Of a DNA stretch of 25,430 nt, positions 2,287 to 19,212 are shown piece after piece (positions within the stretch are counted from its first letter, which is position 1; every line of letters starts with the position of its first letter). The DNA comes from a virus, in the IMG/VR virus record IMGVR_UViG_3300020466_000018, positions 1 through 25,430 of that record, one strand, 5' to 3'. A program made the translations under genes and the position numbers. The notes beneath the pieces are model-generated. The model was not told where the DNA came from and searched no databases. It worked only from the letters and a program-made list of their open reading frames with translations.

Positions 2287-2586
2287 CTATTTTTGGTATT
2301 TTGTTACTAGTCCACTTTCCAACATTTGATCGTTAATAGATTTACCACCTGACATAATTTCAGCAATAATAACTCCATCTTCAAATTGAGTTTTTATTGA
2401 AAAACTTTGCGGCAAAATATTAACTAAATAATCAGTTGCTTCTTCACCTTTTATTCCACTTGGTGCCTGGATGTTTTTTAATTTGATCGTCATTGATTGT
2501 AATGACACACCAAAACCTAAATCTATCCAACAACGGATTGTGTCACCACTAACAATCCTAACCAAACGGGCTTTGTAGATATACAT
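2287..2586 (-). CDS. Degenerate staphylococcal-nuclease-like protein
   Basis: A 99-aa protein with the layout of the thermonuclease (SNase-like) OB fold: RIVSGDTIRCWIDLGFGV, then KLKNIQAPS, then a C-terminal helix NDQMLESGLV. The SGDT aspartate (Asp15) is kept. In the family motif R-L-x-G-I-D-A-P-E the arginine is replaced by Lys35, the second calcium aspartate by Gln40 and the general-base glutamate by Ser43, and the later catalytic arginine position reads GVI. The fold call is reasonable, but nuclease activity is unlikely; a structural or binding role is more probable. The ATG overlaps the stop of the upstream lipoprotein gene (TAATG), so translation is coupled. It is the last gene of the late operon before attP. 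Confidence 0.7.
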   Translation of the reverse strand: MYIYKARLVRIVSGDTIRCWIDLGFGVSLQSMTIKLKNIQAPSGIKGEEATDYLVNILPQSFSIKTQFEDGVIIAEIMSGGKSINDQMLESGLVTKYQK

Positions 2587-2720
2587 TATTCTGAAATATT
2601 ATCAGTTGAAATTTCAATTTTAATTTCTGTGTCTGTTGGAATATCTGCATTAAGCATTATTCTTGAAGAGCCACATCCAATTAAAACAAATGGTATTAAT
2701 ACCAATAGAAAATTTTTCAT
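2586..2720 (-). CDS. Small lipoprotein, candidate outer-membrane spanin
   Basis: A 44-aa ORF with a signal sequence and lipobox: MKNFLLVLIPFVLIGCGSS, with the lipidated cysteine at residue 16. The mature part would be only 29 residues and ends in an acidic stretch. A strong GGAG site lies six bases upstream of the ATG, and the stop overlaps the next gene. It directly follows a 101-aa protein with an N-terminal membrane helix and coiled coil; that pair matches the architecture of two-component spanins (inner-membrane Rz, outer-membrane Rz1). It is shorter and less proline-rich than lambda Rz1, so the lipoprotein call is firm and the spanin role tentative. Confidence 0.7.
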   Translation of the reverse strand: MKNFLLVLIPFVLIGCGSSRIMLNADIPTDTEIKIEISTDNISE

Positions 2721-2734
2721 TGTTTACTCCTTTT

Positions 2735-3040
2735 TTAATTATTAGATTTTTTAAGTTCTTTTATTTCCAGGCGCATATCATTTACATCTTCTTTTAATCT
2801 TTCAATGTAAAGGTTCTGCTCGCGGTCTAATGGGAGAATGCCCGAAGATTCCCATTCTTCTATCCAAGTGTCATTCTCTTTAATTTCACCCCATGCTCGC
2901 TCCACTTCCCCCTCTAAAGTATTTAAGCGTTCAATAATTCCAAAATAAGCATAGGTGCTTACTGTTGCGGCTGCGACAAGTGCAATTAAATTTCTTAAAG
3001 GAATTGATATTTCAGATTGATCGTTTAGTTTGACTGCCAT
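2735..3040 (-). CDS. Membrane-anchored coiled-coil protein, candidate inner-membrane spanin
   Basis: A 101-aa protein. Residues 17-37 (LRNLIALVAAATVSTYAYFG) form one membrane helix; the rest (about 38-98) is charged and heptad-rich, ending NDMRLEIKELKKSNN, so the coiled coil would extend into the periplasm. This architecture, followed 14 bases later by a lipoprotein gene, is that of an i-spanin, which fuses inner and outer membranes at the end of lysis. No sequence-level match to Rz is claimed. The start codon has only a weak GAG upstream. A tail- or virion-associated membrane protein is the main alternative. Confidence 0.65.
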   Translation of the reverse strand: MAVKLNDQSEISIPLRNLIALVAAATVSTYAYFGIIERLNTLEGEVERAWGEIKENDTWIEEWESSGILPLDREQNLYIERLKEDVNDMRLEIKELKKSNN

Positions 3041-3054
3041 TTTATTTTCTCGTT

Positions 3055-3618
3055 TTAATTGTTTTGTAAGTATAAAATTTCTGAAATTTTCATTGCTGTT
3101 GCTTTTGATGTTTTTAAATTTGGATCACCATCTGGATAAGTGACAACTAATACTCCCCAGGCGTCCTCGGAGCTCATTATGGGACATGCTATATTTGAAA
3201 TTTCTCTATCCAAAGAAGTGCATTGGCTTAAAACAAAATGTCCAATGACATATTCATCACCTTCCATAAAATACCCTGTTGGTAATAAATCTTCACTATT
3301 TCTTGGCAACATCATTAAAGGCACTACATTTCTTGCATCTACCCAATCATACAACCAAACAGACTGAATATCGCGATCTGACCTTAATAATTTATTTACT
3401 AAATCTTCAACTTCATCTTTCTTTTCTGGTTGAGCTTCAAATACTTCAATTATTGGTATGTTTTGATTATTTTCATCAGTTGTAAAATTTGCATATTGCT
3501 GAAATGCAATATAACCAATTACAGATACAACAATTAAACCAATTATTTTCATAGCAAAAGCTGACCAGTTTTGTTCTGGGCTTATTATGCTTTTAATTAT
3601 TTGAATTATTTTATCCAT
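3055..3618 (-). CDS. Single-pass membrane protein with a GAF-like domain
   Basis: A 187-aa protein with a membrane helix at about residues 22-42 (MKIIGLIVVSVIGYIAFQQY) and a soluble domain of about 120 residues. The latter has alternating hydrophobic strands and the pattern NIACPIMSSEDAWGVLVVTY, which recalls the central strand and loop of GAF sensor domains. With one N-terminal helix the domain would probably face the periplasm. It lies between a small gene after the tail tip fragment and the spanin-like pair, so a role in lysis timing or superinfection exclusion is conceivable, but nothing proves it. Start: ATG at 3618 follows GGAG at six bases, right after the upstream stop. Confidence 0.6.
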   Translation of the reverse strand: MDKIIQIIKSIISPEQNWSAFAMKIIGLIVVSVIGYIAFQQYANFTTDENNQNIPIIEVFEAQPEKKDEVEDLVNKLLRSDRDIQSVWLYDWVDARNVVPLMMLPRNSEDLLPTGYFMEGDEYVIGHFVLSQCTSLDREISNIACPIMSSEDAWGVLVVTYPDGDPNLKTSKATAMKISEILYLQNN

Positions 3619-3821: not shown

Positions 3822-4790
3822 TTACCTCTTTAGTTCTGTGACTGTTAAACCAGTTCCAGCAAAAACACCTAAATTGTAAGATGGTTCACTATTGGTATAT
3901 AAAAACAGAGCATATTTAGAGCCAGTAGTTCCAATAACATCACCAGAACTATCAATTGAATTAGTTGAATATGTAGCTTGTGCTCCATCCGCATAATCTT
4001 GGCTATCTGCTACATTATCACCTAAAAATGACGCTGAGCTGCCAAAACCAGTTGCTTGTTCATAGTAAGCATTTCCTGCTACTTTTTGTAAAACAACCCC
4101 AGTCACATATTTATTTGGCGACCATGTTCCTTTTTTTTGAACCATTGCTGAAGCATTTATAGCAAAACCACTAATATCAGATGAAATTGATCCTAAGGTT
4201 ATTTCAGCTGCAATTATACCTTGTAATGTAGAGGTTGATCCGCCACTATTACTTGAATAAGTTATTGAATTTGCAACTGTTGATAAACTTTGATTGTTGC
4301 TTGTAACTGCTGAATACATATTTGAAATAGCTTGTAATGTAATATCAACAGTTCCAATTGTTGAAAATTGAGCATTAATTTCAGTTGTATATGAACCAGC
4401 AACCAAACTTGTATTTACAGCCCGTAATTTGAAATAATAGGTTTGGTTTAAAGATAATGTATCTTCATAATTCCAATTAAATTCATTAACTGTGCCTGGA
4501 ACACCATCAACACTAGCTAATAAAGAAAAGCCACTTCCAGATGAAGTTGAATAATAAATTTCAACACCTTTTAAATCAGTATCACTTGGGTTAGTCCATT
4601 TAATTGTAATGCTAATTGGATCACTTGTTGCCGAATGACTGGTAACATTGCCTGGAGCAGATGTTTTGGTTGGAATTGTTATTTGGGATATTGCGGACAT
4701 TGCTGAATATTTTCCGGCCATATTCCTAGCTCTAACTTTAACATCATATTGAGTGCCTGTTGCAACACCTGAAATTACTGCTCTTGTCAT
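3822..4790 (-). CDS. C-terminal part of the split tail tip protein (FnIII domains)
   Basis: A 322-aa protein that begins in the middle of a fibronectin type III domain: residues 1-35 (TRAVISGVATGTQYDVKVRA, then RNMAGKYS) are the second half of such a domain and continue the first half found at the end of the 561-aa protein upstream. Residues 45-145 are a complete second FnIII domain (APGNVTSHSA ... IKWTNPSDTDLKGVEIYYS ... YYFKLRAVN). Residues 150-322 are a serine/threonine-rich beta region of receptor-binding type. Lambda gpJ-like proteins normally carry all these parts in one chain. The ATG overlaps the holin stop (ATGA), so the piece is translated by coupling to holin. Confidence 0.8.
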   Translation of the reverse strand: MTRAVISGVATGTQYDVKVRARNMAGKYSAMSAISQITIPTKTSAPGNVTSHSATSDPISITIKWTNPSDTDLKGVEIYYSTSSGSGFSLLASVDGVPGTVNEFNWNYEDTLSLNQTYYFKLRAVNTSLVAGSYTTEINAQFSTIGTVDITLQAISNMYSAVTSNNQSLSTVANSITYSSNSGGSTSTLQGIIAAEITLGSISSDISGFAINASAMVQKKGTWSPNKYVTGVVLQKVAGNAYYEQATGFGSSASFLGDNVADSQDYADGAQATYSTNSIDSSGDVIGTTGSKYALFLYTNSEPSYNLGVFAGTGLTVTELKR

Positions 4791-5239
4791 TTTGAAACTA
4801 ACCTATTTGCGAACCAAAAACTTATTATGCAGCTAAACAATGCCATACTTTCTTCTGACCAAGCGGCTTGAATTGCTTTTAAAGGTTCATCTCCTTCTTG
4901 TATGCCAACAACAACTTGTGCAACTGTAACAACACAAAACACACTAAACATACAATATGTAATTACTGGTCTGACACTTGCTGATAAAGCTGCAATAAAT
5001 TTGGATGGATTAGCTTTAGACAATTGTTGATCATGTTGGTAAACAGCTTTTGTTTGTTCAGTCATTGCCTTAACTGTTTCTTCTTTAATTTTTAAAGCAG
5101 AAAGCTCTTTTGCATATTTAATTTTGCTTTCTTGAAGCATTAATTCATGCTTCATATTTTGTTTTGCCTGGAAGAAATCCAATAATTTAGGTGTAAAGCC
5201 ACCAGCAAAGCCCAAAAGACTGCTTAATAATGAAATCAT
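4787..5239 (-). CDS. Holin, three-TM GTA-type family
   Basis: A 150-aa protein with the layout of the GTA_holin_3TM family: an N-terminal hydrophobic segment (ISLLSSLLGFAGGF), a long charged helical region (about 24-75, QAKQNMKHELMLQESKIKYA), the motif SASVRPVITY, and two membrane helices at about 92-113 and 130-147, ending SFWFANRLVSK. Holins permeabilise the inner membrane to trigger lysis. A good binding site (GGAG, nine bases upstream) supports the start. It is coded between the two halves of the tail tip protein rather than in a separate lysis cassette; its stop overlaps the start of the C-terminal tip piece. Confidence 0.85.
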   Translation of the reverse strand: MISLLSSLLGFAGGFTPKLLDFFQAKQNMKHELMLQESKIKYAKELSALKIKEETVKAMTEQTKAVYQHDQQLSKANPSKFIAALSASVRPVITYCMFSVFCVVTVAQVVVGIQEGDEPLKAIQAAWSEESMALFSCIISFWFANRLVSK

Positions 5240-5372
5240 AGTTTTTAACTCCTGTTTTTGAAAAAATGGCTTGTTTCAGCGAGTTTTCAGCTGTTTTAAG
5301 GGCTTTCCTAGTAGTAATTGATGTAAAACATCAACTTCTGCTGTATGAGCTTTAAAACGCTTTCTGGCTCGT
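5240..5372 (-). other. 133-bp non-coding gap with small inverted repeats
   Basis: This is the only real gap inside the tail tip/holin block. No ORF with a start site is visible. It holds a perfect six-pair hairpin at 5318-5334 (TTGATG, loop of five, CATCAA), and on the minus strand several short GC-containing motifs (AAAGCGTTTTAAAGC, CAGCTG) and GGAG before the holin start. No T run follows the hairpin, so it is not a convincing terminator. Confidence 0.4.
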
Positions 5373-5564
5373 TTATGAAAAAAAGACTATTTTTAAGAGC
5401 AATACAAGAACTGAAGCTGTGCCTGTTATCATAATTGCTTCAATTCTCTTAATTCTAACCAAAGTTAGTTCACTTGTTTTTGTGCACTCTTTTATATGAT
5501 CTTTTAAATGTGCTTCTAATACTGCCAATTTTTTATCCACTTCTGAAATTGTTGTTTTTGCCAT
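5373..5564 (-). CDS. Small C-terminally anchored membrane protein (holin accessory type)
   Basis: A 63-aa protein: residues 1-40 are a charged helix (EVDKKLAVLEAHLKDHIKEC), and residues 43-62 form a single C-terminal membrane helix (AIMITGTASVLVLLLKIVFF). Small helix-plus-anchor proteins of this kind (XhlA type) are often coded next to phage holins, which fits the holin 133 bases downstream. Its ATG overlaps the stop of the 561-aa tail tip protein (TAATG). Function in lysis is inferred from architecture and position. Confidence 0.7.
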   Translation of the reverse strand: MAKTTISEVDKKLAVLEAHLKDHIKECTKTSELTLVRIKRIEAIMITGTASVLVLLLKIVFFS

Positions 5565-7249
5565 TAATTGCTATCCCTTAAAGTTGAGATTGTTTCAAAA
5601 TTTGTGTCAGATGATTTTTTATAATAAATATCATATTCATAAATATGCCTATCATCCGTGCTGTCAGTTATATTCACTTCAATATTACTAACTACTGTTC
5701 CGTCTGTTGCTGTTGTTTCAAGCGCTGTTAATGAAAATGTTGGTATCGCAACATCATTTATTTTTGTAACAGTTGGGGCTGCTGTTTCTGTATAGCCAAT
5801 TTCTTCTGAATTTGACCAATCAAAAACTGAACTATCAATTTCTCGTAAAACAACATCACAACCAATGACAATATCACCTTTGTCACCCTGGCTTGTTCCA
5901 AATTTCCAATCAACAACTTCAAATGTTTTATTGTGTATGCCAATTGTGGGCAGATTAACTGTCACAATGTCCATTGGCTCAATTGCAAATTTTGTTAATT
6001 TTAATGGTAATGTCATTGTGTATGACTTACGCGATTTTTTTAAATAAATTTTTGCAATTCTTTCACACATAACAGCTGTGTTTGTCATAGGTAAAGCTAA
6101 ATCACTAACTAATGTTTCACCATCTGCTGTTACTGCAGCGCTGTCTGATATTTCAGGATAATCTGCGACAACCCAAGAGCTTTCTTCACCAATAAATGTT
6201 CCGCGAACTGTATTAAATGTTTCGCGTCTGCTTGGTTTTGTTACCAGTTGAATATCGCCTCGCAAATCAACTTCATTAATTGTTGTTGTTGAAGATCGCC
6301 ATTTACCAACAACAAGTTTAAATTTGCCATTTGAATATGTTAAATTACCTGCGCAACAACTTAATAAACTTTCTAAGTTTGATTTCATTGACGAAGCGGT
6401 ATCTATAACTCCATTGCAAGTGTATCTTTTTTGCGTTCCAGAAGTTAAAGTAATTGTATCATCACAATCATTCGCCGCCTGAGTAAATGTTGTAGTGTCA
6501 ATTCTGCTTGCGGCAACACCTAATCCATAATCACTATTTGTCAAATAATCATAAATACATAAAGCTGGATTATCACTCCAGGCAGTTGTGCTTGTTCGAT
6601 AATCTAAAATTTTTCTGCCGCGTATTTTTGCAGAAATGTTTGGCACACCAGATGTAAAAACTTCAGGATCATAAGCCATTGCAGTTTGTAAACAAACAAT
6701 GTCTTTAAATTGATCTGCGCTTGTTAAATCTGTATTTGTATAAGTTGTGCTATTTAATGTTTGTGTAGATGTTCCTAACATATCATTTAAGCCATAAAAA
6801 CTAAATCTATTGTCACTATTTGGATAATATCTAGCTGGACTGGTTACATGGCCTGAAACATTTATTGTTAATTCATCATCATTTGCGTAAACGGCTTGTA
6901 TGCTGTCACATTCTTTATATGCCAGGGCTAATACTAAATATAAATGCTCTCTTTTACTTGCAACTCCACTATCACCTTCTGCCATATATAAGATTGTTCC
7001 ACCAACACGTGCTTCACCATATACAATTTTTCTTGATTGAATAGGAGAACGAACCATTTGAGATCGCCCGCCCATTCCTTTTAAATCCATTTTTGGTAAT
7101 AATGCTTTACCAGCCATTATTAAAGGAACACCATATATAACTGTTGTTGCCGCCCAAACTGCCGCTTTAAAATACCAAGTTGCAGCAGCTCCTTTTCCAA
7201 ATAAAGCTGTGGCAAATGCAGTAGCTAATTGTGCAATAAAATTGCCCAT
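5564..7249 (-). CDS. Tail tip / host specificity protein, N-terminal part
   Basis: A 561-aa gpJ-like tail tip protein. Near the N-terminus is a hydrophobic stretch (TWYFKAAVWAATTVIYGVPL), then the characteristic SPIQSRKIVYGEARVGG motif and the beta-rich hub domains (for example CIYDYLTNSDYGLGVAASRI, about 230-250; YTMTLPLKLTKFAIEPMDIV, near 410). The last 55 residues are the first half of an FnIII domain (EYDIYYKKSSDTNFETIS) and stop abruptly; the second half begins the 322-aa gene at 4790. The tip ends the tail and recognises the host surface. The start at 7249 follows AGGGGA and lies one base after the upstream stop. Confidence 0.88.
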   Translation of the reverse strand: MGNFIAQLATAFATALFGKGAAATWYFKAAVWAATTVIYGVPLIMAGKALLPKMDLKGMGGRSQMVRSPIQSRKIVYGEARVGGTILYMAEGDSGVASKREHLYLVLALAYKECDSIQAVYANDDELTINVSGHVTSPARYYPNSDNRFSFYGLNDMLGTSTQTLNSTTYTNTDLTSADQFKDIVCLQTAMAYDPEVFTSGVPNISAKIRGRKILDYRTSTTAWSDNPALCIYDYLTNSDYGLGVAASRIDTTTFTQAANDCDDTITLTSGTQKRYTCNGVIDTASSMKSNLESLLSCCAGNLTYSNGKFKLVVGKWRSSTTTINEVDLRGDIQLVTKPSRRETFNTVRGTFIGEESSWVVADYPEISDSAAVTADGETLVSDLALPMTNTAVMCERIAKIYLKKSRKSYTMTLPLKLTKFAIEPMDIVTVNLPTIGIHNKTFEVVDWKFGTSQGDKGDIVIGCDVVLREIDSSVFDWSNSEEIGYTETAAPTVTKINDVAIPTFSLTALETTATDGTVVSNIEVNITDSTDDRHIYEYDIYYKKSSDTNFETISTLRDSN

Positions 7250-18069: not shown

Positions 18070-19212
18070 TTAAGCTGCTACTGTTATAATGCGGTCTTTT
18101 TTGACTATAACAACTCTGTCATCTTTGACTAAAATTGTTCCGCCAGAACCGCCTGAGGTTGTTTGAATAGTTACTGTTTGACCATCCAAGGTTAATGTTC
18201 CCGCGCCAACAGATACATTAATTGATATTTCTAAACTTACTGATTGACCATTAATGCTTAATGACCCGTTTCCAATTGTTAAAATATCACCTTCTGAAAC
18301 TGTTACTGATTGTCCAGTAAGTGTTAAAGAAGCGCTGCCAGGTTGTGCTAGTTCATTTTCATTAAATTGAACTTGTTGCCCAGCAATTGATAACGACGCA
18401 TTACCAGTAATGATTATATCACCTTCTTCAACTGATACATCTTCACCAGATAAAGATAATGAGCCATTATTAATATCTAAATTTTCACCTAAAACTAAAT
18501 CAAGTGTTTGACCATTTATTGTTAATGTTGCCGTTCCCGGCGTTTCATCAACATCAATTTTAAATTCAACACTTTGTCCAGTTAAAGATAAACTTGCATT
18601 GTTTGGATTTACATTTAATCCAATAACATTTGTTGCATTTTGCCCAGCAATAGATAGCGAAGCATTGCTTGGGTTCGTTTGTGCTGCTGTTATAATTGTT
18701 ACAGCTTGACCAGCTATGCTTAATGAGGCATTTACTGGTGATACATTTTGACCAACATTTTCAGTTAATAGTTGGCCGGAAATTGATAATGAGCCATTTT
18801 CAACAGGAATTTGGTCACCATCTTCAACTCCAATTGTCTGACCAGCAATTGATAATGTGCCATTATTTGTATTTAAAGAATGACCTTTAACAACATTTAA
18901 TGTTTGCCCACTTATTGATAAACTAGCGTTGCCTGGGCTTGCATTAACAGCAGTTAATATTGTTGCTGCTTGACCAGATAAACTTAATGTTGCGTTGCCA
19001 GGAGATAAATTAATTCCTGAATTTTCAGTAATACTTTGACCAGCAATTGATAAAGAACCATTACCAGAAGTAATATTTAAACCAATAGCATTTGTTATGG
19101 CCTGACCAGATATTGATAGCGAACCATTTCCAATTGTTAATTCAACTGGTATCGCAACTGAACCTTCTGAAGAAAAAGTATCTTCTGAGTATGTTGTAAA
19201 CCCAAAAGACAT
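18070..19212 (-). CDS. Surface protein with fifteen 22-residue repeats
   Basis: A 380-aa protein built almost entirely of an exact 22-residue repeat with consensus G-N-(A/G)-S-L-S-I-(S/A)-G-Q followed by twelve variable residues. Residues 28-350 hold fifteen copies without any length change. The first 27 residues (MSFGFTTYSEDTFSSEGSVA) and the C-terminus (GGTILVKDDRVVIVKKDRII) differ. The regular strand-turn pattern suggests a beta-solenoid or a string of small hairpins, as in adhesins and fibres. It has no signal peptide, so it is a virion protein rather than an exported one. It lies in the fibre cluster between terminase and portal; receptor binding or capsid decoration are both possible. 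Confidence 0.75.
   Translation of the reverse strand: MSFGFTTYSEDTFSSEGSVAIPVELTIGNGSLSISGQAITNAIGLNITSGNGSLSIAGQSITENSGINLSPGNATLSLSGQAATILTAVNASPGNASLSISGQTLNVVKGHSLNTNNGTLSIAGQTIGVEDGDQIPVENGSLSISGQLLTENVGQNVSPVNASLSIAGQAVTIITAAQTNPSNASLSIAGQNATNVIGLNVNPNNASLSLTGQSVEFKIDVDETPGTATLTINGQTLDLVLGENLDINNGSLSLSGEDVSVEEGDIIITGNASLSIAGQQVQFNENELAQPGSASLTLTGQSVTVSEGDILTIGNGSLSINGQSVSLEISINVSVGAGTLTLDGQTVTIQTTSGGSGGTILVKDDRVVIVKKDRIITVAA
18163..19131 (-). repeat. Fifteen tandem 66-bp coding repeats
   Basis: The DNA behind the 22-residue repeats. Each unit is 66 bp; units are clearly diverged at third positions and in the variable half, so the array is old or diversified rather than a recent tandem duplication. 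There are no insertions or deletions between units. Confidence 0.8.

Follow-up and report, generated by a model that had tools for sequence, protein, structure and literature searches.

The closest described counterparts of the locus reported here are the baseplate hubs of the phage tail tip. Lambda gpJ is ordered as hub, linker, first and second fibronectin type III domains (FNIII-1 and FNIII-2) and central fibre, and the lambda genes L-K-I-J are pieces of a T5 pb3-like protein with the unrelated gene K between them (PMC10721106). Phage hubs spread over several genes are already known in this way, but they are broken at domain boundaries. As recounted in PMC11666773, citing Dutta et al. 2005 (PMID 16199661), an engineered FNIII monobody severed in the CD loop folds again when its two peptides are mixed and still binds its target, though about tenfold less tightly and with a lower melting temperature. 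Here we analysed a 25,430-base virus record (IMGVR_UViG_3300020466_000018, the whole of which is called the window), which holds the minus-strand structural region of a siphophage with an integrase-like gene at one end. In the window, the tail-tip gene is divided inside FNIII-1 into two genes, A and B, and between them lie a small membrane protein gene and a holin-like gene. This arrangement probably goes back to a single ancient event in which a pair of lysis genes split the tip gene, and FNIII-1 is probably rebuilt non-covalently from the two chains.

The order of the four genes, all on the minus strand, was confirmed by an open reading frame (ORF) check. The coordinates also agree with a preliminary description of the window, which had listed TAATG and ATGA gene overlaps, a single 133-bp gap and 779 bases between the halves. 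This A-B interval lies at 4788-5566, and its length is not a multiple of 3. The features are listed below (aa, amino acids; nt, nucleotides; TM, transmembrane).

5564..7249, minus strand: A half, tail-tip baseplate hub of the T5 pb3/lambda gpJ type; ORF of 561 aa, with terminus FETISTLRDSN after FNIII-1 strand 4.
5567..5743, minus strand: first half of FNIII-1, A residues 503-561, strands A, B, C and C' (AlphaFold strands 504-513, 519-528, 538-543 and 552-557).
5373..5564, minus strand: 63-aa coiled-coil/TM protein of the presumed lysis pair; ORF with a TAATG overlap with A; family A4, relatives of which adjoin holins in other phages.
5240..5372, minus strand: non-coding gap of 133 bp from the small gene to the holin; kept at 111-133 nt in the window's subgroups and absent in others.
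4787..5239, minus strand: holin-like protein of 150 aa (phrog_6637, E 7e-27).
3822..4790, minus strand: B half, with the second half of FNIII-1, FNIII-2 and the C-terminal fibre/receptor region; ORF of 322 aa beginning MTRAVISGVATGTQYDVKVRA, with an ATGA overlap with the holin stop.
4674..4790, minus strand: second half of FNIII-1, B residues 1-39, strands E, F and G (fn3 profile 49-81 of 84; strands 535-538, 546-555 and 564-569 in an unsplit model).
4410..4661, minus strand: FNIII-2, B residues 44-127 (PF00041 and PF16323 matches).

Three lines of evidence place the break within a single FNIII domain, as the preliminary description had claimed when it reported that the tip protein ends in mid-domain and the 322-aa gene begins with the missing half. 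First of all, unsplit homologues are colinear across the junction. The unsplit proteins of the isolate phages CRP-831 and CRP-6 and of pelagiphage HTVC202P (895-961 aa) align across it. In a wider unsplit set, ranging from 841 to over 1,200 aa, the end of the A profile and the start of the B profile are usually 1-8 residues apart in one ORF, and the last A column and the first B column are adjacent in a MAFFT alignment. Second, the Pfam fn3 profile, with a cut-off of 25 bits, is passed only by the joined termini of the window, which scored 28.6 bits over profile positions 16-81 of 84. The A end alone gave no fn3 match, and the B start alone gave 17.1 bits (profile 49-81), below the cut-off. 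The joined halves of two split relatives, L018 and L016, also scored under it. Third, the AlphaFold model of A ends in four strands only, those listed above, with pLDDT of about 70-80, and the model of an unsplit homologue (L063) has seven. In the latter the cut falls at the equivalent of residues 532-534, with strand 527-531 before it and strand 535-538 after it.

The break had been placed in a loop between strands, and this position can be refined to the loop between strand 4 (C') and strand 5 (E). From the model of A and the unsplit model, A contributes strands A, B, C and C', and B contributes strands E, F and G. The two sheets of an FNIII domain are A-B-E and C'-C-F-G, so both chains would be needed for each sheet of FNIII-1. 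An A C-terminus complete by itself, which would have spoken against a divided domain, is not what the model predicts.

The two halves are recognizable as parts of one tip protein. The family matches of A are to phage hubs (phrog_5616 tail fibre, E 5e-81; Phage-tail_3). Its AlphaFold model (mean pLDDT 77) has the fold of solved hubs: the best match of a Foldseek search of the PDB was DT57C/T5 pb3 (E 6e-27), and the T1, chi, JBD30 and lambda hubs were also found. B consists of an incomplete FNIII domain at the start, a complete one next to it and a C-terminal part (fn3 E 7e-8), and its best PHROG is phrog_31, central tail fiber J (2e-10). Together, A and B give the lambda order with the cut falling in FNIII-1, and they have fold and domain order in common with the lambda gpJ and T5 pb3 hubs (PMC10721106). 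However, both FNIII domains of lambda and T5 belong to one chain, whereas in the window no single chain carries FNIII-1 and FNIII-2 after the hub; the full domain set is spread over two chains and FNIII-1 is shared between them. The lambda L-K-I-J genes resemble the window in that a hub extends over several genes with an unrelated gene between the pieces (PMC10721106). By contrast, their breaks lie at domain boundaries, while the break in the window lies within one domain and the inserted genes appear to be lysis genes.

The split is conserved throughout a group of relatives, which came up in searches with A, with B and with alignments of these proteins. Besides the window, 22 contigs contain both halves; three of them (L024, L025 and L027) are near-copies, and four truncate one end of A or B. 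All 22 are split at the same residue with the same gene order and a B starting with MT[RK], and none is unsplit. The 4-bp ATGA overlap between the holin stop and the B start is invariant in the window and in 22/22 relatives. The junction from A to the small gene ranges from -4 to +1 nt, and the A-B interval from 524 to 781. Compared with the window, hub identity is highest at 87% (96% for a partial hub) and falls to about 42%. No unsplit hub was found among the best 80 hub loci above 37% identity, and hubs at about 37% and below with readable 3' ends are unsplit. An unsplit homologue carrying both halves, a search for which the preliminary description had proposed, therefore exists among distant relatives only (37% identity or less), and two separate, self-contained domains stand at this place in none of the close relatives. 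In a maximum-likelihood tree, with some unsplit outgroups long-branched, all split hubs fell on one side of a 100/99 branch, and they did so in all bootstrap trees. The unsplit state is likely to be ancestral because it is found in lambda, T5-type and Roseobacter phages. The B half had no match at E 1e-5 in isolate phage genomes, and cellular genomes gave two distant, apparently unsplit homologues only. The split family is probably marine.

Both halves are under purifying selection: in a codon comparison of close pairs, dN/dS was at most 0.22 in the last 62 codons of A and the first 42 of B. The two stubs also co-segregate. Pairwise protein distances of A, either the hub or the C-terminus, correlated at 0.90-0.97 with those of the first 42 residues of B. 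For the holin against A or the B N-terminus the correlation was 0.08-0.60, depending on the set, and for the C-terminal region of B it was 0.07-0.39. With the cassette controlled in a partial Mantel test, the A C-terminus and the B N-terminus still correlated (r 0.87-0.90, p 0.0005). A single set of three contigs illustrates this. The DNA of L019 is 87-100% identical to that of L018 over the A end and about 80-95% identical over most of B, whereas its holin is about 40-63% identical to that of L018 over most of its length and about 90-95% identical to that of L104, whose A and B differ from those of L019. The interior of the interruption has thus been exchanged while the A and B stubs stayed matched. 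As a separate observation, B residues 143-322 are swapped freely among the split phages (L001-L104), and L011-L014 have the window's version though the rest differs. Such free exchange would be expected of a receptor-binding part.

The preliminary description had assigned the interrupting genes to a small membrane protein and a holin, and this assignment is supported. Taken alone, the holin call of the window is weak (E=0.93 against GTA_holin_3TM), but it becomes good through the family and the replacements. In the holin family phrog_6637, 8/13 members match GTA_holin_3TM (best 6e-5), and sister cassettes match the phrog_3427 holin. In L021, L024/L025/L027, L031, L032 and L037, holins of 121-128 aa stand at the position of the window's holin; both of the two replacements tested were clear PF11351/phrog_3427 members. 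Other phage contigs carry the small protein together with the holin as well, but not within a tip gene. In unsplit relatives a 60-73 aa coiled-coil/TM protein precedes a PF11351 holin, an M15 endolysin adjoins the pair in three of them (G006, G008 and G012), and the holin is found 6-7 kb further downstream than the intact tip gene in G009 and G012. The cassettes of the GTA_holin_3TM/phrog_3427 type in unsplit relatives and that of the window are alike: a small coiled-coil membrane protein comes first, and a holin or holin-like protein of the 3TM type comes next. They differ in that the former lie downstream of an intact tip gene and are followed by M15 endolysin, whereas the latter lies within the tip gene with no adjoining endolysin. 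On these family relationships, the nested genes are best regarded as a putative lysis pair.

According to our preferred explanation, the ancestor would have been a single-chain tip protein with hub, FNIII-1, FNIII-2 and fibre. One insertion of a two-gene lysis pair, a small coiled-coil membrane protein and a 3TM-type holin, would have cut it, placing a new stop and a new start in the loop between FNIII-1 strands 4 and 5. The products would be A, with the hub and strands A, B, C and C', and B, with strands E, F and G, FNIII-2 and the fibre/receptor end. We infer that A and B reassemble non-covalently, very probably with three copies of each, and rebuild FNIII-1 as in engineered split FNIII proteins; the chains would be locally concentrated in a trimeric tip, which should help the domain to re-form. 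Translation of the genes is probably coupled in part through the TAATG/ATGA overlaps. Rejoining by strand complementation, already proposed in the preliminary description, is well supported by the co-segregation, the purifying selection and the engineered precedent. In that precedent, as described in PMC11666773, two FNIII fragments likewise re-form a folded, working domain, but there the break was made in the laboratory and in the CD loop (strands 3/4), whereas the cut in the window is natural, lies between strands 4 and 5 and is kept in a virus group. As for the origin of the nesting, we favour a tolerated frozen accident over a regulatory purpose.

Several points weigh against this explanation. 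The hub correlates with the B N-terminus as strongly as the A C-terminus does, and the co-segregation of A and B may partly reflect vertical inheritance of both. Furthermore, the window and five split contigs yielded no M15 endolysin in a search with PF08291, which is present in four unsplit ones, and the lysis module is thus incomplete on paper. A search for PF05838 endolysin, run without a positive control, gave none in split contigs. Given the missing M15 enzyme, the endolysin of the split lineage may be of another type, be encoded elsewhere or lie beyond the fragments.

Among the alternatives, an adaptive nesting, in which the fibre half depends on the holin for its translation and lysis is tied to tip completion, is unlikely. 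It draws on the invariant holin-B overlap and the tight junction from A to the small gene. Nevertheless, compact phage genomes often show overlaps of this kind, and many B genes have a ribosome-binding site to themselves. The link between small gene and holin is broken in the window's subgroup by the 111-133 nt gap with its separate ribosome-binding site, and the holin type has been swapped within the lineage while the arrangement was kept. Coupling of lysis timing to tip synthesis, as claimed in the preliminary description, is possible, but the claim is weakened by the replacement of the holin gene and by the separate ribosome-binding site that this gene often has. Slightly more doubtful is a reading in which split FNIII-1 is a functional joint that bends or parts on receptor binding to open the tip, with translation of holin and fibre half tied. 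If it were true, the lysis genes would be read only while tips are being completed.

Slightly less probable again is that the halves do not re-form FNIII-1 at all, the strands being leftovers and B attaching via FNIII-2 or other contacts. The C-terminal strands of A were modelled in isolation and with moderate confidence, which leaves room for this. However, leftover strands should decay, and here both stubs are under strong purifying selection, their end and start points are fixed across the whole split group, and their pairing persists where the intervening gene has been exchanged.

Restoration of one chain by intron splicing, ribosome bypass or frameshift, or intein trans-splicing is very improbable, in line with the preliminary description, which noted that the two halves differ in frame and could be joined only by exact removal of 779 bases. 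Such an excision would indeed give a perfect reading frame. But an Rfam search of the interval gave no intron or other match and no catalytic RNA was found there; the interval varies in length, and in five relatives (L021, L025, L031, L032 and L037) it consists of two coding genes with 0-7 nt to spare, leaving no room for a ribozyme. On these grounds splicing is nearly excluded. No intein sequence follows A or precedes B, whose end and start abut relative to the unsplit homologues. Finally, the window being an uncultivated virus record, one might suspect an assembly artefact, a sequencing error or a decaying pseudogene, but the same arrangement in 22 other contigs, under purifying selection, refutes this.

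The gap itself gave no consensus fold when its alignment was folded, and single-strand folds were not significant. A scan for sigma-70 promoters and terminators around the cassette found fewer promoter-like sites than in shuffles. The gap and its equivalents in L003, L011, L016, L018, L019 and L104 share a conserved stretch, CATACAGCA...TTTTGATGTTTTACATCAATTA, and a short inverted repeat in the gap shows compensatory changes (TTGATG/CATCAA to TTAATG/CATTAA) in some relatives but is lost in others. In other phage contigs (L106, L113, L115, L121 and L125, 6001-6886), a third small membrane gene (63-67 aa) occupies the site of the gap. A 380-aa protein of the window (18070-19212, minus strand) is built of many GxxSLSIxGQ-type repeats, and in other phage contigs (L106 4103-4891, L113 and L121) the small-holin pair is preceded by proteins with ATGxIG repeats.

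Downstream of the split tip gene, a 101-aa protein (2735-3040, minus strand) has an N-terminal membrane segment, a coiled coil and a weak Rz-like spanin match (E 0.04), and a 44-aa lipoprotein-like protein (2586-2720, minus strand) follows it; the two are a candidate spanin pair. A strongly conserved 187-aa membrane protein of no known family (3055-3618, minus strand; MDKIIQIIKSIISPEQNWSAFAMKI) may belong to the lysis region, because it recurs directly after the small-holin pair in the otherwise different contig L126 (6781-7347). Beside the integrase-like gene (95-1528), positions about 2079-2120 look like the last part of a tRNA gene at its 3' side (T arm, acceptor, CCA), which likely marks an attachment site.

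Gene fission in a phage hub is known, and what is new here is a cut through a domain, made by putative lysis genes. Our limited literature search found no report of lysis genes within a split tail-tip gene, nor of a natural cut within an FNIII domain, although precedents may exist. If our explanation is true, a lineage-wide cut through a single FNIII domain would amount to native fragment complementation in a virion, and it would show how an insertion into an essential structural gene comes to be tolerated and fixed. The split tip also offers a ready system for asking if receptor signals can pass through a non-covalent joint at the end of a siphophage tail.

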